Shown here: one piece after another, positions 200 to 60,284 of the stretch
Position numbering within the stretch: the stretch's first letter is position 1
Layout: every line of letters begins with the position of its first letter
Translations under genes and position numbers: made by a program
The notes under the pieces: generated by a model
The model's database searches: none
What the model was told of the DNA's origin: nothing
The model's input: only the letters and a program-made list of their open reading frames with translations
Assembly: GCA_937944105.1 (NCBI GenBank)
Contig: CALDZP010000002.1
Location: 1 to 60,284 of the forward strand
Reading direction: 5' to 3'
DNA: 60,284 nt
DNA from: an uncultured Ignavibacteria bacterium
Lineage (GTDB): Bacteria; Bacteroidota; Ignavibacteria; Ch128b

Positions 200-2878
200 T
201 TATTTCAACAAAACCATTTTTCGGGTTATTGATTTTTTCTCAGTTTCAAGTTTATAGAAGTAAATTCCACTTGATAAATCACCGGCATCAAAATTAATAA
301 CGTAATTACCGGTTTGAAGTTCATCATTCACCAGAGTTTTAACATATTCTCCAATTGGATTATAAATTTTGATAGTTACATTCGATTTTTCTGGAACATA
401 GAATGAGATTTTTGTTATTGCATTAAATGGATTCGGGTAATTTTGGTGTAAAGCAAAGTCACTAATGATTGTTATTCCCTCAAATGGAACTAAAGTTTGT
501 CCTGTAAACCAGTTGTAAACTCTTGAAAATAAAACATTTCTTTTTATAGACGATAAACTGTCATTAATACTTTCAAAACCAAAACCGAGATAAAATAATT
601 TTGCTCCTGAGGGATACGTTCGCCAGCCTCCAGTTGCATCAGTTCCATCATTTTTAAATGCGAATGATACATTGAAATTGCCTCTGCTTTCAATGATATC
701 CATACTCGTTTCATTTGCAGCTCCGTCTGAACCATTTACTCGTAAATTGGGAATATCATTCCCAAAAAGATCACCAGCTTTTCCGTAAATTCTATTGGCA
801 AAAATGCTTGCATTCTTAACATAATTAATTCCAAGATAATTGTTAAGAAAGTCTTGATTTGCTGAACTTAAAAACTCTGCAATATTTTGCCCACTCATAA
901 ATAATTTTCCACCATTATCTAGAAACATTTTCAATGAATCGATGAATGAATTTTCAAATAAAGTGTCTTTATTCTTACCGGAATAAACGATCAGAATGTC
1001 TCTACCATAGAAATATTTTGGAGTATCATTTTCAACGAATTCAAATTTCTTGTTTAATGAATTTACTGCATTGAAATAAAAATTGCTTAACGATGGTTTT
1101 TCCGCTCGAGAATAAATTAATATTCTTGGAATTCCAATTATAACTTTTATACTATCGATAAAAATATTTCCACCAGTGGAAACAACATATTTTAAATAAA
1201 TATATCTACTATCAAAATCCGACTGAACTAAAAACAAACTATCAAGACTCACATTTACCTCTTCCAATCCATTCACTGAAATAGTTTTAGATGAATTGAC
1301 AAGCTGAATTCCAGTTTCATTGGTTTGAAATTCAATAGTTGAAGAGCTTGAAGAAATTTGTTCGACATTATACAACTTTAAAGATGCAGTTGCATATTCA
1401 TTTTGTTCAATTCTACCATTTTTATTATCCACAGCTTCAAGTAATTTGACTTCTTTTGCAATTACATAAGGTTGTGTTCCAATATCTAAAGTAGCAATAA
1501 CATTTTGACCGGATAATCTTATATTTCTTACAGAAACATAAGTTGGTTGATTGTTATAGTCGTGACTGTTAGGATTAGATGCGGCATCAAATCTTGTATT
1601 GTTTGTCGAACCAGGATAGGGATCTCCTGCATCACCTCTATTTCTTTTTCGATTTAGATCCCATAATCCATCAGCCTGAACCAATCCAACCTTGTAATGA
1701 TTCTCATCACGATTATTTGGTCGACTATCATCAACATGAAAAATTAGTAAACCTCCTGCATAAATATTTTTATCGAAACCAATTTTTTGTCTATTTTCAA
1801 TGAGAAAATATTCTACACCAATTGGTCCCATTCTCCACATTCTATAAACAACAGGATTTTGTTCTGAATTTACAATGGTCAAATCAGGAGAAAAATTTGC
1901 AATATCAATTGGAGCTAACCAGCCGAGTTGTTTTTTACACCAGGCACTCAAATGAACAGGCGTTTCAGGAGTATTCCCATTTCCTCCCCATGAACCGCCA
2001 GCCATCAAGCACCAGTTACCTAATCCTTCAGATGAATTATCTGTATCATAAAGATCTGGTAATCCAAAGATATGACCAAATTCATGTGTGAAAACACCAA
2101 TTTCAATAAGATCACCAATCTGGTTGTTGTTCCCTGCAAGTTCTGGTTGAATTGCGTAATCACCATCAATTAATACATATTTATTTGAGACTGGATCAAT
2201 ATCATTGGTTCTATACGGTTGTCCACCAGTTAACATTCTAAAATTCCAGCGATGTGACCAGATATTTTGTGCGCCTGCCTCTGCACCTGCACCAGTATGA
2301 ACTACTGCAATAAAACCAATTCGTGGATTTCCTTGACTATCATAATATTGGATAAAATTAGAATAATCTAATGTTGAATCGGCAGCTTTAATTAAGTCTA
2401 AAGTAAATCTAGGACCTCCATTTACTGAAAGCCCATTATCAGAACCGACATAAGAAGCCATCGTTCCTGGTACTTGATACCAGTTTGAACAGTAGCCAGT
2501 AAAATATAGTTGATTGTAAGAAACCTCACGATAATAATCTGTGATTGTACCTGTTGGATTTGGACCATCAAAAAGTTTTTGTTGAAATTGCTCGCGTGAA
2601 TATCGGGGATTAGAATCAGAATAACGACCAAGTAAGGTTAAAGCAAAAACAGTATCTGCTGTAAGAAAAGATTGAGGTAAAAGACCTTTCGAAATTTTTT
2701 CTCTCAAAAGTTTCCTTTCTTCGAACCTTTTAGCATAATATCCTTCGCTATAAGTTTTCTGAATCTCATTAAAAAATGATTTTGCATGATCAGGAAAATT
2801 CTGACCGTGTTTTGGAATAGTAATACAGATTAGATCTAAATAAAAAATTAAGATAAATAGAAGTATTAATTTTTTCAT
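200..2878 (-). CDS. M6 family metalloprotease with T9SS C-terminal sorting domain
   Basis: Predicted secreted zinc protease of about 892 residues. The start at 2878 is chosen because it gives a clean signal peptide (MKKLILLFILIFYLDL) with GGAG about 10 bases upstream. An in-frame start 84 bases further out (2962) would run into nadE and spoil the signal peptide. The zinc motif HEFGHIFGLPD (HExxH at about residue 265) and the surrounding blocks fit the M6/immune-inhibitor-A family. The last ~80 residues open with FALHQNYPNPFN and end in a beta-rich GIYFYKLE...KMVLLK block, the type-A T9SS sorting signal. The enzyme should cross the inner membrane by Sec and the outer membrane by T9SS, ending on the surface or outside the cell. 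The stretch between (about 490-810) looks like beta-sandwich and ThuA-like domains. Its substrate is not visible. It is monocistronic and divergent from nadE. Confidence 0.9.
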   Translation of the reverse strand: MKKLILLFILIFYLDLICITIPKHGQNFPDHAKSFFNEIQKTYSEGYYAKRFEERKLLREKISKGLLPQSFLTADTVFALTLLGRYSDSNPRYSREQFQQKLFDGPNPTGTITDYYREVSYNQLYFTGYCSNWYQVPGTMASYVGSDNGLSVNGGPRFTLDLIKAADSTLDYSNFIQYYDSQGNPRIGFIAVVHTGAGAEAGAQNIWSHRWNFRMLTGGQPYRTNDIDPVSNKYVLIDGDYAIQPELAGNNNQIGDLIEIGVFTHEFGHIFGLPDLYDTDNSSEGLGNWCLMAGGSWGGNGNTPETPVHLSAWCKKQLGWLAPIDIANFSPDLTIVNSEQNPVVYRMWRMGPIGVEYFLIENRQKIGFDKNIYAGGLLIFHVDDSRPNNRDENHYKVGLVQADGLWDLNRKRNRGDAGDPYPGSTNNTRFDAASNPNSHDYNNQPTYVSVRNIRLSGQNVIATLDIGTQPYVIAKEVKLLEAVDNKNGRIEQNEYATASLKLYNVEQISSSSSTIEFQTNETGIQLVNSSKTISVNGLEEVNVSLDSLFLVQSDFDSRYIYLKYVVSTGGNIFIDSIKVIIGIPRILIYSRAEKPSLSNFYFNAVNSLNKKFEFVENDTPKYFYGRDILIVYSGKNKDTLFENSFIDSLKMFLDNGGKLFMSGQNIAEFLSSANQDFLNNYLGINYVKNASIFANRIYGKAGDLFGNDIPNLRVNGSDGAANETSMDIIESRGNFNVSFAFKNDGTDATGGWRTYPSGAKLFYLGFGFESINDSLSSIKRNVLFSRVYNWFTGQTLVPFEGITIISDFALHQNYPNPFNAITKISFYVPEKSNVTIKIYNPIGEYVKTLVNDELQTGNYVINFDAGDLSSGIYFYKLETEKKSITRKMVLLK

Positions 2879-2901
2879 TTTATTTATATCCTCCAGAAGT
2901 T

Positions 2902-2932
2902 TTTGAATAACTTTACTCATTGAGTATTTTTG
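2902..2932 (+). promoter_or_regulatory. Bacteroidota-type promoter of nadE, leaderless start
   Basis: TTTG at 2902-2905, a 19-base spacer, then TATTTTTG at 2925-2932 match the TTTG/N19-21/TAnnTTTG consensus of Bacteroidota housekeeping sigma. Only 4 bases separate the -7 box from the nadE ATG at 2937, so the transcript is predicted to begin at or next to the start codon. No ribosome binding site fits between. Confidence 0.6.
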
Positions 2933-2936
2933 AATT

Positions 2937-4571
2937 ATGAAAATAAAATTAGTAAGTATCAATCCAACAATTGGTTATCTAAAACACAACTTTGAGAAAA
3001 TTATTGAAAATATCAAGATTAGCGAAAAAGAAAATATTGATTTAATTATCTTTCCTGAGCTTTCACTTATTGGTTATCCACCGCTTGATTTACTTGATAA
3101 AAAATCATTTATCGATGAGGTTATTTCATATAATCAAAAAATAGCTGAATATTCTGGTAAGGTAGGTGTTTTGTTTGGTAGTGTAACAAGAATTGAGGAT
3201 CAGATTGGTACAAATATTTTTAACTCAGCTATATTTTGTTTTGAAGGAAAGATTAAATCAATTCATCGTAAATCTCTTCTGCCCAATTATGATGTTTTTG
3301 ATGAAGTTAGATATTTTGAACCATCCAGAGAAATTCAGCTTTTAGAATTTAAAGGTAAAAAATTTGGAGTGACAATTTGTGAAGATGCCTGGAACGATAA
3401 AGATTTTTGGGTTCATAGAAAGTACGATTTTGATCCTGTTGAAGAAGTTGTAAAACTTGGTGCTGAAATCATTATAAATATGTCAGCCAGTCCCTTCAGC
3501 ATTGGCAAAGAAAAAATTCGAACGGAAATGTTTTCTCAAATTGCACACAAACATAAGAAGCCAACTTTATTTGTTAATCAAATTGGTGCAAATACAGACT
3601 TGATATTTGATGGGGGAGCAAAAGTTTTTGATAGAAACGGAAACCTTATTCTCGCATCTAATCGCTTCGAAGAAAGTTCTGTTCTTTTTGATATTGATAA
3701 AATTTACAATCCAATTACATATGATTTTCCTGAAGATATAGTAGATGTATATAATGCCTTAATTCTTGGAATTAAAGATTATTGTCAAAAAACAGGATTT
3801 AAAAAAGTAATTTTAGGTTTAAGTGGTGGAATTGATTCTGCGCTAGTTACTGTATTAGCTAAAGAAGCTCTTGGTTCGGAAAATGTTTTTTGTGTGATGA
3901 TGCCTTCTCAATACTCTACAGAAGGAAGTATAAAAGATTCGAAGAAATTGATTGAGAAGCTTGGAGTAAAGAGCACGATTATTCCAATTAATACTTTGTT
4001 TGATGAATTTAAAAAAGTTCTAAAGAACGAATTTAAAGATTTACAAGAAGATGTAACTGAAGAAAATTTACAGTCTCGTATTCGAGGTGTTTTATTGATG
4101 GCATTATCAAATAAATTTGGTTATCTATTGCTGGCTACTGGAAATAAATCAGAACTTGCTACTGGCTATGCAACTCTCTATGGTGACATGTGTGGTGGAC
4201 TTGCTCCGATTTCAGATGTTTATAAAACAAAAGTATACGAACTTGCTCGGTTTATTAATCGAAATGATGAAATTATACCTGAAGAAATAATTAAAAAGGT
4301 TCCTTCAGCCGAATTACGGCCAAATCAAACTGATCAGGATACTTTGCCTCCTTATGATGTACTTGATAAAATCCTATATTATTACATTGAGGAGGCTAAG
4401 GAAGTTGATGAAATTGTTGAATACGGTTTTGATAAAAATCTTGTTGAAAAAATTTTGAAAATGGTTGACCGAGCTGAATATAAAAGAAAACAAGCAGCTC
4501 CAGGACTAAAAATTACCAATAAAGCTTTTGGTACTGGAAGAAGATTCCCAATAGTTCAGAGGTGGAGATGA
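2937..4571 (+). CDS. nadE: Glutamine-dependent NAD+ synthetase
   Basis: Catalyses the last step of NAD synthesis, the ATP-dependent amidation of deamido-NAD using ammonia released from glutamine, in the cytoplasm. It has 544 residues in two domains. The N-terminal nitrilase-fold glutaminase carries the Glu-Lys-Cys triad: E41 in FPELS, K112 in HRKSLLP and C148 in TICEDAW. The C-terminal synthetase domain has the ATP PP-loop SGGIDS at 296-301 and the substrate-binding region ATGNKSELATGYATLYGD. Length and domain order are normal for the two-domain form. The stop overlaps the dsbD start (ATGA at 4568-4571), so the two are cotranscribed. The ATG at 2937 has no Shine-Dalgarno sequence and lies 4 bases after a promoter -7 box. 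Confidence 0.97.
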   Translation: MKIKLVSINPTIGYLKHNFEKIIENIKISEKENIDLIIFPELSLIGYPPLDLLDKKSFIDEVISYNQKIAEYSGKVGVLFGSVTRIEDQIGTNIFNSAIFCFEGKIKSIHRKSLLPNYDVFDEVRYFEPSREIQLLEFKGKKFGVTICEDAWNDKDFWVHRKYDFDPVEEVVKLGAEIIINMSASPFSIGKEKIRTEMFSQIAHKHKKPTLFVNQIGANTDLIFDGGAKVFDRNGNLILASNRFEESSVLFDIDKIYNPITYDFPEDIVDVYNALILGIKDYCQKTGFKKVILGLSGGIDSALVTVLAKEALGSENVFCVMMPSQYSTEGSIKDSKKLIEKLGVKSTIIPINTLFDEFKKVLKNEFKDLQEDVTEENLQSRIRGVLLMALSNKFGYLLLATGNKSELATGYATLYGDMCGGLAPISDVYKTKVYELARFINRNDEIIPEEIIKKVPSAELRPNQTDQDTLPPYDVLDKILYYYIEEAKEVDEIVEYGFDKNLVEKILKMVDRAEYKRKQAAPGLKITNKAFGTGRRFPIVQRWR

Positions 4572-6295
4572 AAAAAATAATTTTTATTATCAGTTTATTT
4601 TTAACTGTTTCTTCAACTTATTCTCAAAAAATTTTAAATGTAGAGTTAACCCAGAGTCACTCCAAAATTCTTTCAGGAGAAAATCTTTACTTAATCTTAA
4701 AAGTTAAACTCGACCCGGAATGGCACATTAACACTAATAAACCAAGTGAAGATTATTTAATTCCAACTGATGTAAGTATAAATTCAAAAGATGGTTTTTT
4801 AATTTCACAAAAAAATTTTCCTGAAGGGAAAAACCTAAAATTCGATTTTTCAGATGTGCCCCTTTCAGTTTATGAAAATGAATTTGAAATTCCTATTATT
4901 GTCAGAGTACCAGAAAATCTTATAGATGGAAAATATCAGTTTGATCTTGTTCTAGCCTATCAAGCGTGTAATAATCAATCGTGCTTACCACCTGAAAAAG
5001 AAAAGATTCCAGTGAATATTGAGATAACTTCACAAAGTTCAGGTGTAATTAAAAATAATGATTTTAATTTTTCGGTTTTTGATTCTAATATAAAAAGTAA
5101 AAACTCACTGGCTGATTCAATCTTTGATGGAAAAAGTTTACTTCTTTCATTTATTTTGGTTTTTCTTGGTGGCCTTGCTCTCAATCTCACTCCATGTGTC
5201 TATCCATTAATTCCAATCACATTAGGTTACTTTGGTGGTCAAAGTGAAAGTAAAACATCTCGATTGTTTGCTCTTGCATCTATTTATGTAATTGGTATGG
5301 CAATTACTTACTCGGTTATTGGTGTGGTAACTGCATTAAGCGGAAGTCTTTTTGGTGCTTTACTTCAAAATCCATTTGTGTTGATTGGAATTGCTCTGGT
5401 TTTAGTCGCTTTATCTTTAAGTATGTTTGGTTTGTATGAATTTCAAATTCCATCTTCATGGATGGTTAAATTTGGTGAAGCCCGATCCGGTTATTTTGGT
5501 GCTTTGTTTATGGGTTTGACAATGGGTATTGTGGCTGCTCCATGTATTGGTCCTTTCGTTGTTGGACTATTGACATTTGTTGGAGCTAAAGGCGATCCAA
5601 TGTTTGGCTTTTTAATTTTCTTTGTTCTTGCTTTAGGTCTCGGTTTCCCTTATATATTTTTGGGCGTTTTTTCCGGTAAAATTAAATCTTTACCTCGTAG
5701 TGGCGAATGGATGTTAGCAGTAAAGAAAATATTTGGTTTTATTTTAATTGGAATGGCAATCTACTTTTTACTTCCTTTATTACCTGAATCTTTTCGAGGA
5801 TATATTCTCCCATCATTTATGATTTTAAGTTCTGTTTATCTTTTAATTTTCGATAAATCGGGCACTAACATTAAAACATTTAATTATATTAAAAGCACAA
5901 TTCTTGTTCTAATAGCCCTATTGGGTTTATGGTTATTGATTCCATCTGAAACAGAATCAGTTCAATGGACAAAAGTAAATGTCGAACAAATTGAAATAGG
6001 AAATGGTCAACCAACGATTATCGATTTTTACGCTGATTGGTGTGTCCCATGTAAAGAATTGGATGCTTTGACTTTTACAGATCCTAAAGTAATAGAAGAA
6101 ACTAAGAAATTTCGAAGGTATAAAGTCGATCTTACGAAAACCGGAAGTGAAGAAACTCAACTTGCAATGCAAAAGTATGATATTGTTGGTGTACCAACAA
6201 TAATTTTGATTGATTCAAATGGTAAAGAATTCAAAAGGATTACATCGTTTATTAATGCCGAAGAATTTCTTGAAATAATTAAAGAAGTAGAGTGA
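4568..6295 (+). CDS. dsbD: Thiol:disulfide interchange protein DsbD
   Basis: Carries electrons from cytoplasmic thioredoxin across the inner membrane to periplasmic thiol proteins, including those of cytochrome c maturation. The 575-residue protein has a signal peptide, an N-terminal DsbD-alpha-like beta domain (about 25-155) with a Cys pair (ACNNQSC), a hydrophobic eight-helix core (about 190-460) with the two redox cysteines C210 (NLTPCVYP) and C326 (APCIGPF), and a C-terminal thioredoxin-like domain with CVPC at 492-495. All three redox centres are present. The ATG at 4568 is preferred (GAGGTGGAG just upstream) over an in-frame GTG at 4562. The gene overlaps the nadE stop by 4 bases. A role in supplying haem-c assembly fits the multihaem gene in this window, but that link is inference. 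Confidence 0.93.
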   Translation: MKKIIFIISLFLTVSSTYSQKILNVELTQSHSKILSGENLYLILKVKLDPEWHINTNKPSEDYLIPTDVSINSKDGFLISQKNFPEGKNLKFDFSDVPLSVYENEFEIPIIVRVPENLIDGKYQFDLVLAYQACNNQSCLPPEKEKIPVNIEITSQSSGVIKNNDFNFSVFDSNIKSKNSLADSIFDGKSLLLSFILVFLGGLALNLTPCVYPLIPITLGYFGGQSESKTSRLFALASIYVIGMAITYSVIGVVTALSGSLFGALLQNPFVLIGIALVLVALSLSMFGLYEFQIPSSWMVKFGEARSGYFGALFMGLTMGIVAAPCIGPFVVGLLTFVGAKGDPMFGFLIFFVLALGLGFPYIFLGVFSGKIKSLPRSGEWMLAVKKIFGFILIGMAIYFLLPLLPESFRGYILPSFMILSSVYLLIFDKSGTNIKTFNYIKSTILVLIALLGLWLLIPSETESVQWTKVNVEQIEIGNGQPTIIDFYADWCVPCKELDALTFTDPKVIEETKKFRRYKVDLTKTGSEETQLAMQKYDIVGVPTIILIDSNGKEFKRITSFINAEEFLEIIKEVE

Positions 6296-46303: not shown

Positions 46304-46621
46304 GCACAAATTTAGTGAATGAACAATAAAAAAATTTAAACGCCTTTTAATTCTTAAGAGGAATAATAGAAATTAAAAGTATGTCATAGTATTTTATAAG
46401 TACTCTCATAATCTCGAAACCCTGAAAAATAAAAATTTCAAATTATCAGAAACAAAAATTGAATTTATAAATTAAATTAGCCTAATGATAGAATTAATGG
46501 AACTATTGCTTATCCAATCAATAGGTGCTTTTTATTATTCAACAATAATTACGAATTTTGTTATTAAAATTGTTTTTTCTAACCTATTTGATTAGTTTTA
46601 ATAAAATATTTAAGAGGTAAA
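46304..46621. other. Divergent promoter region between glnE and secA
   Basis: About 318 AT-rich bases. On the minus strand TAAATTTG (46314-46307) is a perfect -7 box, 3 bases before the glnE ATG, but no TTTG sits 19-21 bases upstream. On the plus strand the secA promoter is not convincingly visible; the best candidate is ATTG-N20-TAGTTTTA about 35 bases before the ATG. AGAGG precedes secA. No gene seen. Confidence 0.4.
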
Positions 46622-58884: not shown

Positions 58885-58916
58885 TTTGCAACTTCGCTTG
58901 TTATAAAATAACTTTG
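58885..58916 (+). promoter_or_regulatory. Bacteroidota-type promoter of tnaA, leaderless start
   Basis: TTTG at 58885-58888, exactly 20 bases, TAACTTTG at 58909-58916. Only four bases then precede the ATG at 58921, and no ribosome binding site is present, the same geometry as at nadE. Confidence 0.62.
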
Positions 58917-58920
58917 AGTT

Positions 58921-60284
58921 ATGAAAACAATCATTGAGCCATTCAAAATAAAATCAGTTGAATCTATCCGCTTTACAACGCGAGAACAAAGAGAAAAAAT
59001 TCTTAAGGATGCGTTTTATAATCCTTTTATGATTCATTCACGAGATGTTATAATAGATTTACTTACAGATAGTGGAACATCTGCGATGAGTTCCGAGCAA
59101 TGGGCAGGAATAATGAGAGGTGACGAAGCTTATGCTGGTTCTCAGAGTTTTTTCAGGTTTGAAAGAGTTGTAAAAAAAATCACAGGATTCAAACATATCA
59201 TTCCAACTCATCAAGGAAGAGCAGCTGAAAAAATTCTTTTTTCTATTCTTGGTGGACCAGGAAAATATTTTCCGAGCAACACACATTTTGATACAACAAG
59301 AGCAAATATTGAATTTGTCGGTGCTGAGGCTGTGGATCTTCTTAATGAAATTGGATTGAAAACTGATCTCCGAGCAGATTTCAAAGGTAACATAGATATA
59401 GATGCTCTGGAAAAATTTATAAATAAAGTTGGACCTGAAAATATACCAATTGTAATGTTGACTGTTACGAACAATTCAGGTGGTGGGCAACCAGTATCAA
59501 TGGAAAATATAAGAGAGACAAGAAAAATCTGTGATAAATATGGACTTAAGCTTTTTCTGGATGCATGTCGATTTGCGGAAAATGCTTACTTTATCAAAAA
59601 AAGAGAGAAAGGGTATGAAAATAAATCTGCCTTAGAAATTGCTCAGGAAATGTTTGCTTATGCTGATGGTTGTACAATGAGTGCAAAAAAAGATGGACTT
59701 GTTAATATTGGTGGTTTTCTGGCAATGAATGATGATGAACTGGCAATGAAATGTAGAAATGTTTTAATTGTTACAGAAGGATTTCCAACTTATGGTGGGC
59801 TGGCAGGTCGTGATTTAGAAGCAATTGCACAGGGTCTGGAAGAAGTTCTTGAAGAAGATTATTTACGGTATCGAATAAGATCCGTTGAATATCTTGGTGA
59901 AAAATTAATTGAAGCTGGAATTCCAATTATTGAACCTCCTGGTGGTCATGCGATTTATATCGATGCAAAAAGATTTGCTCCACATATTCCTCCTGAAAAT
60001 TATCCTGGTCAATCTATTGTTTGTGAACTTTATCTTGAAGGTGGAATTCGTGCAGTAGAAATTGGAAGTGTTATGTTTGGTAAATATGATTCAAATGGTA
60101 AATTAATCCCTGCAAAACTTGAGCTTGTGCGACTTGCAATTCCAAGAAGAGTTTATACTCAAAGTCATATTGATTATGTGATTGAGGTGATTGAGGAAGT
60201 CTTTAAGAAAAAGGATAAACTCAGAGGAATGAAAATTATCGAAGAAGCTCCTATCTTGAGACATTTTACTGCAAAGTTTGATTA
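58921..60284 (+). CDS. tnaA: Tryptophanase (window edge cuts the last few residues)
   Basis: PLP-dependent beta-eliminating lyase turning L-Trp into indole, pyruvate and ammonia. 454 complete codons are in the window; the frame ends in LRHFTAKFD, which in this family lies just before the C-terminus. Visible: DLLTDSGTSAM, THQGRAAEK, the PLP lysine K257 in SAKKDGLVN, EGFPTYGGLAGRD and AIPRRVYTQSH. Tryptophanase and tyrosine phenol-lyase are close relatives; at the position of the phenol-binding Arg381 of tyrosine phenol-lyase this protein has I381 (VEIG, as in E. coli tryptophanase), so tryptophanase is preferred. The ATG at 58921 follows a -7 box by 4 bases. Confidence 0.88.
   Translation, partial: MKTIIEPFKIKSVESIRFTTREQREKILKDAFYNPFMIHSRDVIIDLLTDSGTSAMSSEQWAGIMRGDEAYAGSQSFFRFERVVKKITGFKHIIPTHQGRAAEKILFSILGGPGKYFPSNTHFDTTRANIEFVGAEAVDLLNEIGLKTDLRADFKGNIDIDALEKFINKVGPENIPIVMLTVTNNSGGGQPVSMENIRETRKICDKYGLKLFLDACRFAENAYFIKKREKGYENKSALEIAQEMFAYADGCTMSAKKDGLVNIGGFLAMNDDELAMKCRNVLIVTEGFPTYGGLAGRDLEAIAQGLEEVLEEDYLRYRIRSVEYLGEKLIEAGIPIIEPPGGHAIYIDAKRFAPHIPPENYPGQSIVCELYLEGGIRAVEIGSVMFGKYDSNGKLIPAKLELVRLAIPRRVYTQSHIDYVIEVIEEVFKKKDKLRGMKIIEEAPILRHFTAKFD

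Follow-up and report, generated by a model that had tools for sequence, protein, structure and literature searches.

A conserved promoter box four bases before the nadE start codon predicts a leaderless mRNA in a family of Ignavibacteria

The nadE locus and its predicted promoter

The window analysed here is a stretch of 60,284 nucleotides that makes up one contig (C2) in the assembly of an uncultured Ignavibacteria bacterium, which comprises 2.74 Mb in 96 contigs and is 99.4% complete. On its forward strand, at positions 2937–4571, lies nadE, which encodes a glutamine-dependent NAD+ synthase of 544 amino acids (NF010588, 689 bits against a cut-off of 479) whose closest named relative among the matches listed is the 79% identical NadE of the Ignavibacteria MAG L073. 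The initial annotation called this gene essential; the basis for this is that no second NAD synthase of full length was found in the 99.4%-complete assembly, and the word itself goes beyond this evidence. The start of nadE is secure because an in-frame TGA (2931–2933) two codons 5′ of the ATG rules out an upstream start, the 150 bases around the called start contain no other in-frame ATG, GTG or TTG, and the first methionine of NadE aligns with that of 11 relatives (12 sequences in all; for the L008 and L014 loci, the ATG codon just 5′ of the match was added). We therefore discarded the idea of an alternative start codon.

The flanking genes are both associated with Shine-Dalgarno (SD) or SD-like sequences. 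On the reverse strand, a gene for a secreted M6-type metallopeptidase (200–2878) diverges from nadE, with the two starts 59 bases apart, and carries GGAGG at 2894–2890 before its own ATG. On the forward strand, a dsbD-like gene (4568–6295, with a predicted start at 4568) overlaps the nadE stop within an ATGA and is preceded by an SD-like GAGGTG contained in the last nadE codons (4559–4571). The two genes probably form an operon in which the dsbD-like gene is second, and the GAGGTG site combined with the ATGA overlap makes translational coupling between them probable.

Directly upstream of nadE we observed the layout TTTG (2902–2905), N19, TATTTTTG (2925–2932), AATT (2933–2936) and ATG (2937–2939), which agrees exactly, in sequence and coordinates, with what had first been annotated. 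Bacteroidota-type sigma-A promoters consist of a TTTG about 19–21 bases 5′ of a -7 box. At nadE, TATTTTTG conforms to the TAnnTTTG form of the -7 box, the TTTG forms a -33-type box separated from it by N19 (N19–20 in all six genomes of the family described below), and both elements are conserved across that family. The best RpoD-like match in the same genome is a 285-aa open reading frame scoring 267.5 bits to TIGR02393, below the cut-off of 354; its shortness would fit a missing region 1.1 and likewise a promoter of the TTTG/TAnnTTTG type. No SD core (GGAG, GAGG or AGGA) occurs between -20 and -5 of nadE. The first 12 bases of the predicted nadE mRNA are unpaired in its predicted fold, which is otherwise unremarkable (z 0.58). 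We also considered NAD-capping of a +1 A as a possible form of nadE feedback; the bases around the predicted +1 do not match the consensus favouring capping.

The two-box match alone is no more than chance in this AT-rich window, where TTTG-N17–23-TAnnTTTG occurs eight times against 6.98 expected from shuffled sequences (sd 2.53), and we rejected the motif count as proof in itself. Across the whole genome, the two-box pattern followed by an ATG within 25 bases gave 112 matches versus 44 in a reversed control, in a comparison that counts some promoters twice. What is above chance at nadE, as judged by comparing genomes, is the position of the box together with its conservation in six genomes.

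nadE upstream regions inside and outside the family

Among 61 genomes searched, we found six that make up the family studied here (G000–G005, three genera), and all six carry TTTG-N19/20-TAnnTTTG-N4-ATG at nadE. The NadE proteins of the family relatives are 70–81% identical, and synonymous divergence of the gene is near saturation: among 98 four-fold columns, defined as those with conserved first and second bases, the third base is invariant across the six genomes in 6, and pairwise four-fold identity ranges from 0.31 to 0.51. A box-to-ATG gap of 4 in 6/6 genomes at such divergence indicates, at the level of comparative sequence, that this spacing is held by selection. In the two genomes G005 and G003 (loci L007 and L008, within about 45 bases 5′ of nadE), both boxes and the spacer that joins them are identical, with a four-fold agreement of only 0.38, and a regulator site may overlap the nadE promoter.

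The conserved layout survives a change of neighbour. A homolog of the divergent M6 gene sits beside nadE in five of the six genomes, starting 52–59 bases upstream and carrying an SD-like site of its own, whereas in G001 the upstream neighbour, an open frame on the nadE strand, stops 269 bases short of nadE and is followed, as judged by eye, by a terminator-like inverted repeat and a T-run. G001 nevertheless retains the nadE promoter and its 4-base gap, and the conservation is therefore no by-product of the neighbouring gene. This genome also bears on two alternatives. The first is that the nadE box is a chance promoter lookalike of the kind that AT-rich DNA produces, as the unremarkable window count would allow; conservation in six genomes at near-saturated divergence, maintained where the neighbour has changed, leaves this explanation with next to no probability. 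The second is that nadE is expressed mainly by read-through of a longer operon, so that its leader would lie inside the upstream gene, and the orientation and proximity of the open frame in G001 would suit it. It is just as improbable, as the upstream gene is divergent in the other five genomes and the terminator-like repeat intervenes in G001 itself.

A further alternative is that a second promoter inside the divergent gene makes the main, leadered nadE mRNA, leaving the close promoter a minor or different role. A leadered message of this sort would sit poorly with the lack of an SD core before nadE, and when the six genomes are aligned, the -33 box marks where columns without variation first appear ahead of the ATG, one isolated T aside. 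Searches for other elements were equally unproductive: a scan of positions 2600–3100 for sigma-70-type promoters returned 3 sites versus 2.9 in shuffled sequences, and Rfam at its gathering threshold gave 0 matches in the window, so that we rejected both a sigma-70-type promoter near nadE and an RNA element or riboswitch before it. On these grounds we regard a second upstream promoter as quite improbable, and we retain the close box as the predicted promoter of nadE.

Outside the family, the nadE upstream region looks different. Our outgroup comprised the 27 distinct nadE loci that remained, once duplicates and G001 were removed, from two sources: 24 loci scanned out of a set of 80, of which 29 were inspected, and the loci of the 61-genome search. 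Record titles and positions guided the choice of the 24, and the loci of that set that were left out were mostly from other phyla. A TAnnTTTG-type box 3–6 bases before the nadE ATG was found in 0/27 of these loci. In 3/27 the 60 bases before the start contain an exact TAnnTTTG, at 20, 20 and 27 bases, and allowing TAnnTTTC adds nine more, eight at 19–41 bases and one (L081) at 7; the other 15/27 have no recognisable box. Where the box is visible, a predicted nadE leader of about 15–37 bases is thus the norm for loci outside the family, and the leaderless layout of nadE is likely derived within it.

TAnnTTTG boxes before other gene starts

We examined the placement of the box in a census of 726,667 bases, or 27% of the genome with the window included, in which a home-made caller identified 559 genes. 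TAnnTTTG lies 3–6 bases before the start of 11 of the 559 genes and 18–22 bases before the start of 17, against means of 1.76 and 2.90, respectively, for the 840 rearrangements of the motif; it ranks first at both distances, and no other rearrangement reaches either count. The two peaks fit leaders of about 0–2 and about 14–18 bases, and the census supports the view that the polymerase of this lineage reads TAnnTTTG. The 11 near-box genes include nadE itself, two genes with doubtful TTG starts and two that sit 1–8 bases behind a same-strand gene, and we judge about 7 of the 11 to be credible. No box occurs 0–2 bases before any of the 559 starts (expected mean 1.33), an absence that we discarded as evidence since 273 of the 840 rearrangements also have none there.

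The strength of the near peak varies among relatives. In the sister genome G002 it is weak (4 of 626 genes, a count equalled or exceeded by 90 of 840 rearrangements); by contrast, 23 genes carry the box at 17–24 bases, a strong leader peak of rank 1. In G041, which belongs to another family, the near peak was not seen (1 of 349 genes; 341 of 840 rearrangements reach this), and the peak at leader distance is modest (6 genes at 17–24; 38 of 840 rearrangements reach it). A peptidase-like gene of the census list also has the box in the G002 sample, at 8 bases.

The same sample shows that SD sites are in wide use in this lineage, with an SD core before 191 of the 559 genes versus 35 in a control stretch, and that predicted leaderless genes are a small set beside the SD-led ones, which sets the lineage apart from Bacteroidia. 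An SD core precedes 0/11 of the genes with the box at 3–6 bases versus 11/25 of those with the box at 17–30, a difference that is partly spatial because a close box occupies the SD region. We found no match to 16S rRNA in the genome's own assembly; among five other family genomes, the anti-SD is intact in 3/3 of the 16S sequences found, which end in GGATCACCTCCTTTCT, and Ignavibacteria appear in a published table of anti-SD types (PMC10783764). The initial annotation had reasoned from a Bacteroidota background; with SD use as wide as it in fact is in this lineage, the SD-less nadE becomes more notable.

We followed the close box across the family for seven candidates: nadE, a glnE-like gene, a tryptophanase-like gene, murA, smpB, a sigma factor gene and a lipB-like gene, the names of the last two being our own reading of the proteins. 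The glnE-like gene of the window (46303–43481, reverse strand), labelled from matches that lie under curated cut-offs (best 379 bits, cut-off 625), has the -7 box TAAATTTG (46307–46314, reverse strand) 3 bases before its ATG, and the box-to-start gap is 3–5 in 6/6 family genomes. We placed the starts of these orthologs at the codon behind the box, which is ATG in two genomes and GTG in four. The gap is 3 in four genomes, each of which also has an in-frame TTG overlapping the box. If the layout is leaderless, a gap of 3 requires a transcription start 3 bases after the box. The second case is a gene of the tryptophanase/tyrosine phenol-lyase family that extends to the contig end, where TTTG-N20-TAACTTTG (58885–58916, forward strand) is followed by 4 bases and the ATG at 58921. 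This gap of 4 recurs in 5/5 genomes with a close ortholog, of which none was found in G001.

The remaining candidates hold the layout less strictly. In murA the box lies 3–4 bases from the start in three of four genomes (L176–L178) and 23 bases from it in the fourth (G004, L179), no match at threshold being found in G003 and G005; from its upstream sequences, murA may be a natural switch between a leaderless-like and a leadered layout inside one family. In smpB (L190–L195), TAnnTTTG lies 7–8 bases from the ATG in 5/6 genomes and the sixth has TAAGTTAG at 7; this TAAGTTTG box, imperfect in that one case, is accompanied by a conserved CGCA just 5′ of the ATG, and the layout predicts a leader of about 3 bases. 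The sigma factor gene has the box at 6–7 bases in 3/6 family genomes, and the lipB-like gene has a close box in 1/4, with no match in G004 and G005; we rejected both as family-wide close-box genes, the layout not being held.

Predicted start of the nadE mRNA and known leaderless systems

Where transcription would begin relative to the box can be estimated from Flavobacterium. In many Flavobacterium johnsoniae promoters the -7 box, running from T-12 to G-5, is separated from +1 by 4 or 5 bases (PMC6847099), and the -7 box of Flavobacterium psychrophilum is likewise described at -12 to -5 (PMC9723704). With a spacing of 4, the nadE +1 would be the A of the ATG at position 2937, whereas with a spacing of 5 it would fall on the U and the start codon would be lost, so the leaderless reading requires either a spacing of 4 or initiation a little further upstream. 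The initial annotation had allowed 4–7 bases; the published range of 4–5 is narrower, and any value above 4 cuts into the AUG. Its central claim, that the nadE mRNA lacks a leader, is well supported by comparison, through the gap of 4 in 6/6 genomes, the census peak at 3–6 bases and the position that the box takes in flavobacteria (-12 to -5). Its description of nadE translation as efficient goes beyond this evidence. We put the probability that the mRNA is leaderless, with its 5′ end at the A of the ATG or 1–2 bases before it, at roughly 80%. A pyrimidine-purine step is commonly preferred at transcription starts, and the T that directly precedes the nadE ATG in 6/6 family genomes supplies one.

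Part of the same evidence would accommodate a polymerase that starts 1–4 bases upstream and leaves a leader of 1–4 bases, which would be functionally almost equal. Start-site choice shifts by a few bases, the glnE-like gap varies from 3 to 5, and the smpB box, 7–8 bases from the ATG (exact in 5/6 and imperfect in the sixth), fits a leader of 3–4 bases. Such flexibility is difficult to reconcile with a gap of exactly 4 in 11/11 nadE and tryptophanase-like sequences, and a start further 5′ leaves only 1–3 bases after the box; we consider a short leader at nadE unlikely.

Leaderless mRNAs are generally started by a 70S ribosome or an initiator-loaded 30S subunit on the 5′-terminal AUG. In the leaderless model that we favour, a Bacteroidota-type housekeeping (sigma-A) promoter would drive nadE, and the placement of its -7 box would set the RNA polymerase start at the A of the ATG or 1–2 bases 5′ of it. 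The resulting mRNA, leaderless and without an SD site, would present a 5′-terminal AUG to which a 70S ribosome, or a 30S subunit loaded with initiator tRNA, binds directly, and the dsbD-like second gene would be read through its SD site or by overlap coupling. What we observe are the boxes with their spacing, which the family conserves, and a peak in box position across the genome itself; promoter use, the exact +1 and the mode and efficiency of translation at nadE are what we would predict from them. We further speculate, as a rather doubtful extension, that a small fixed set of genes (nadE, the glnE-like and tryptophanase-like genes, partly murA, and smpB with its leader of about 3 bases) has been selected to be leaderless and forms a separate route of translation, used by 70S ribosomes or where IF2 is abundant; NAD synthesis, nitrogen control and ribosome rescue could then respond jointly when SD-led initiation drops.

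A conserved and precisely spaced TAnnTTTG-ATG shows that comparison can bring leaderless genes to light. The arrangement also provides a natural contrast, in which nadE appears leaderless in one family and outside it mostly has a predicted leader of about 15–37 bases where the box is recognisable, and together the nadE and murA contrasts offer a way to test what a gene gains or loses by having a leader. Should 5′-end mapping agree, the box would become a landmark for annotating start codons, as in the glnE-like gene with its GTG in 4/6 genomes.

Other Bacteroidota are among the nearest known systems. Leaderless mRNAs make up 5.5% in F. psychrophilum (PMC9723704) and, counted as those with 5′ UTRs under 10 nt, about 3.7% in Bacteroides thetaiotaomicron (PMC7366714), so that in these reports, as here, promoters with the same TAnnTTTG -7 box yield a small minority of leaderless mRNAs; the mRNAs of both species are described as lacking SD sequences, whereas the Ignavibacteria lineage studied here uses them. 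The main texts of these two papers do not contain the word nadE, and among the literature matches listed no title or abstract reports leaderless mRNA in Ignavibacteria or a leaderless nadE. Zheng et al. (2011) predicted leaderless genes, as we do, from the position of a promoter box relative to the start, and reported them in 1 of 37 Bacteroidetes/Chlorobi genomes, at 2.4% of genes (PMC3160421). As that study describes its approach, it identified no promoters other than Pribnow-like ones, and the TAnnTTTG class would therefore have been missed.

The Deinococcus-Thermus group is also among the nearest parallels, in its layout. Its leaderless genes, for which experiments have been done, have a -10 region that adjoins the open reading frame (PMC12340547), and as reported they resemble the genes described here in having a box a few bases before the start, conserved among the species of a genus and with no room for a leader, alongside genes with ribosome-binding-site motifs. 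They differ in using a classical -10 box and in accounting for about one third of the genes of D. radiodurans (PMC12340547), whereas the layout predicted for the Ignavibacteria family uses TAnnTTTG, at about 2% of sampled genes or fewer. Leaderless mRNAs are thus a known kind, and what is new is a family-wide, base-exact layout at nadE within an SD-using Ignavibacteria lineage, together with the same layout at two further genes of the window, the glnE-like and the tryptophanase-like gene.
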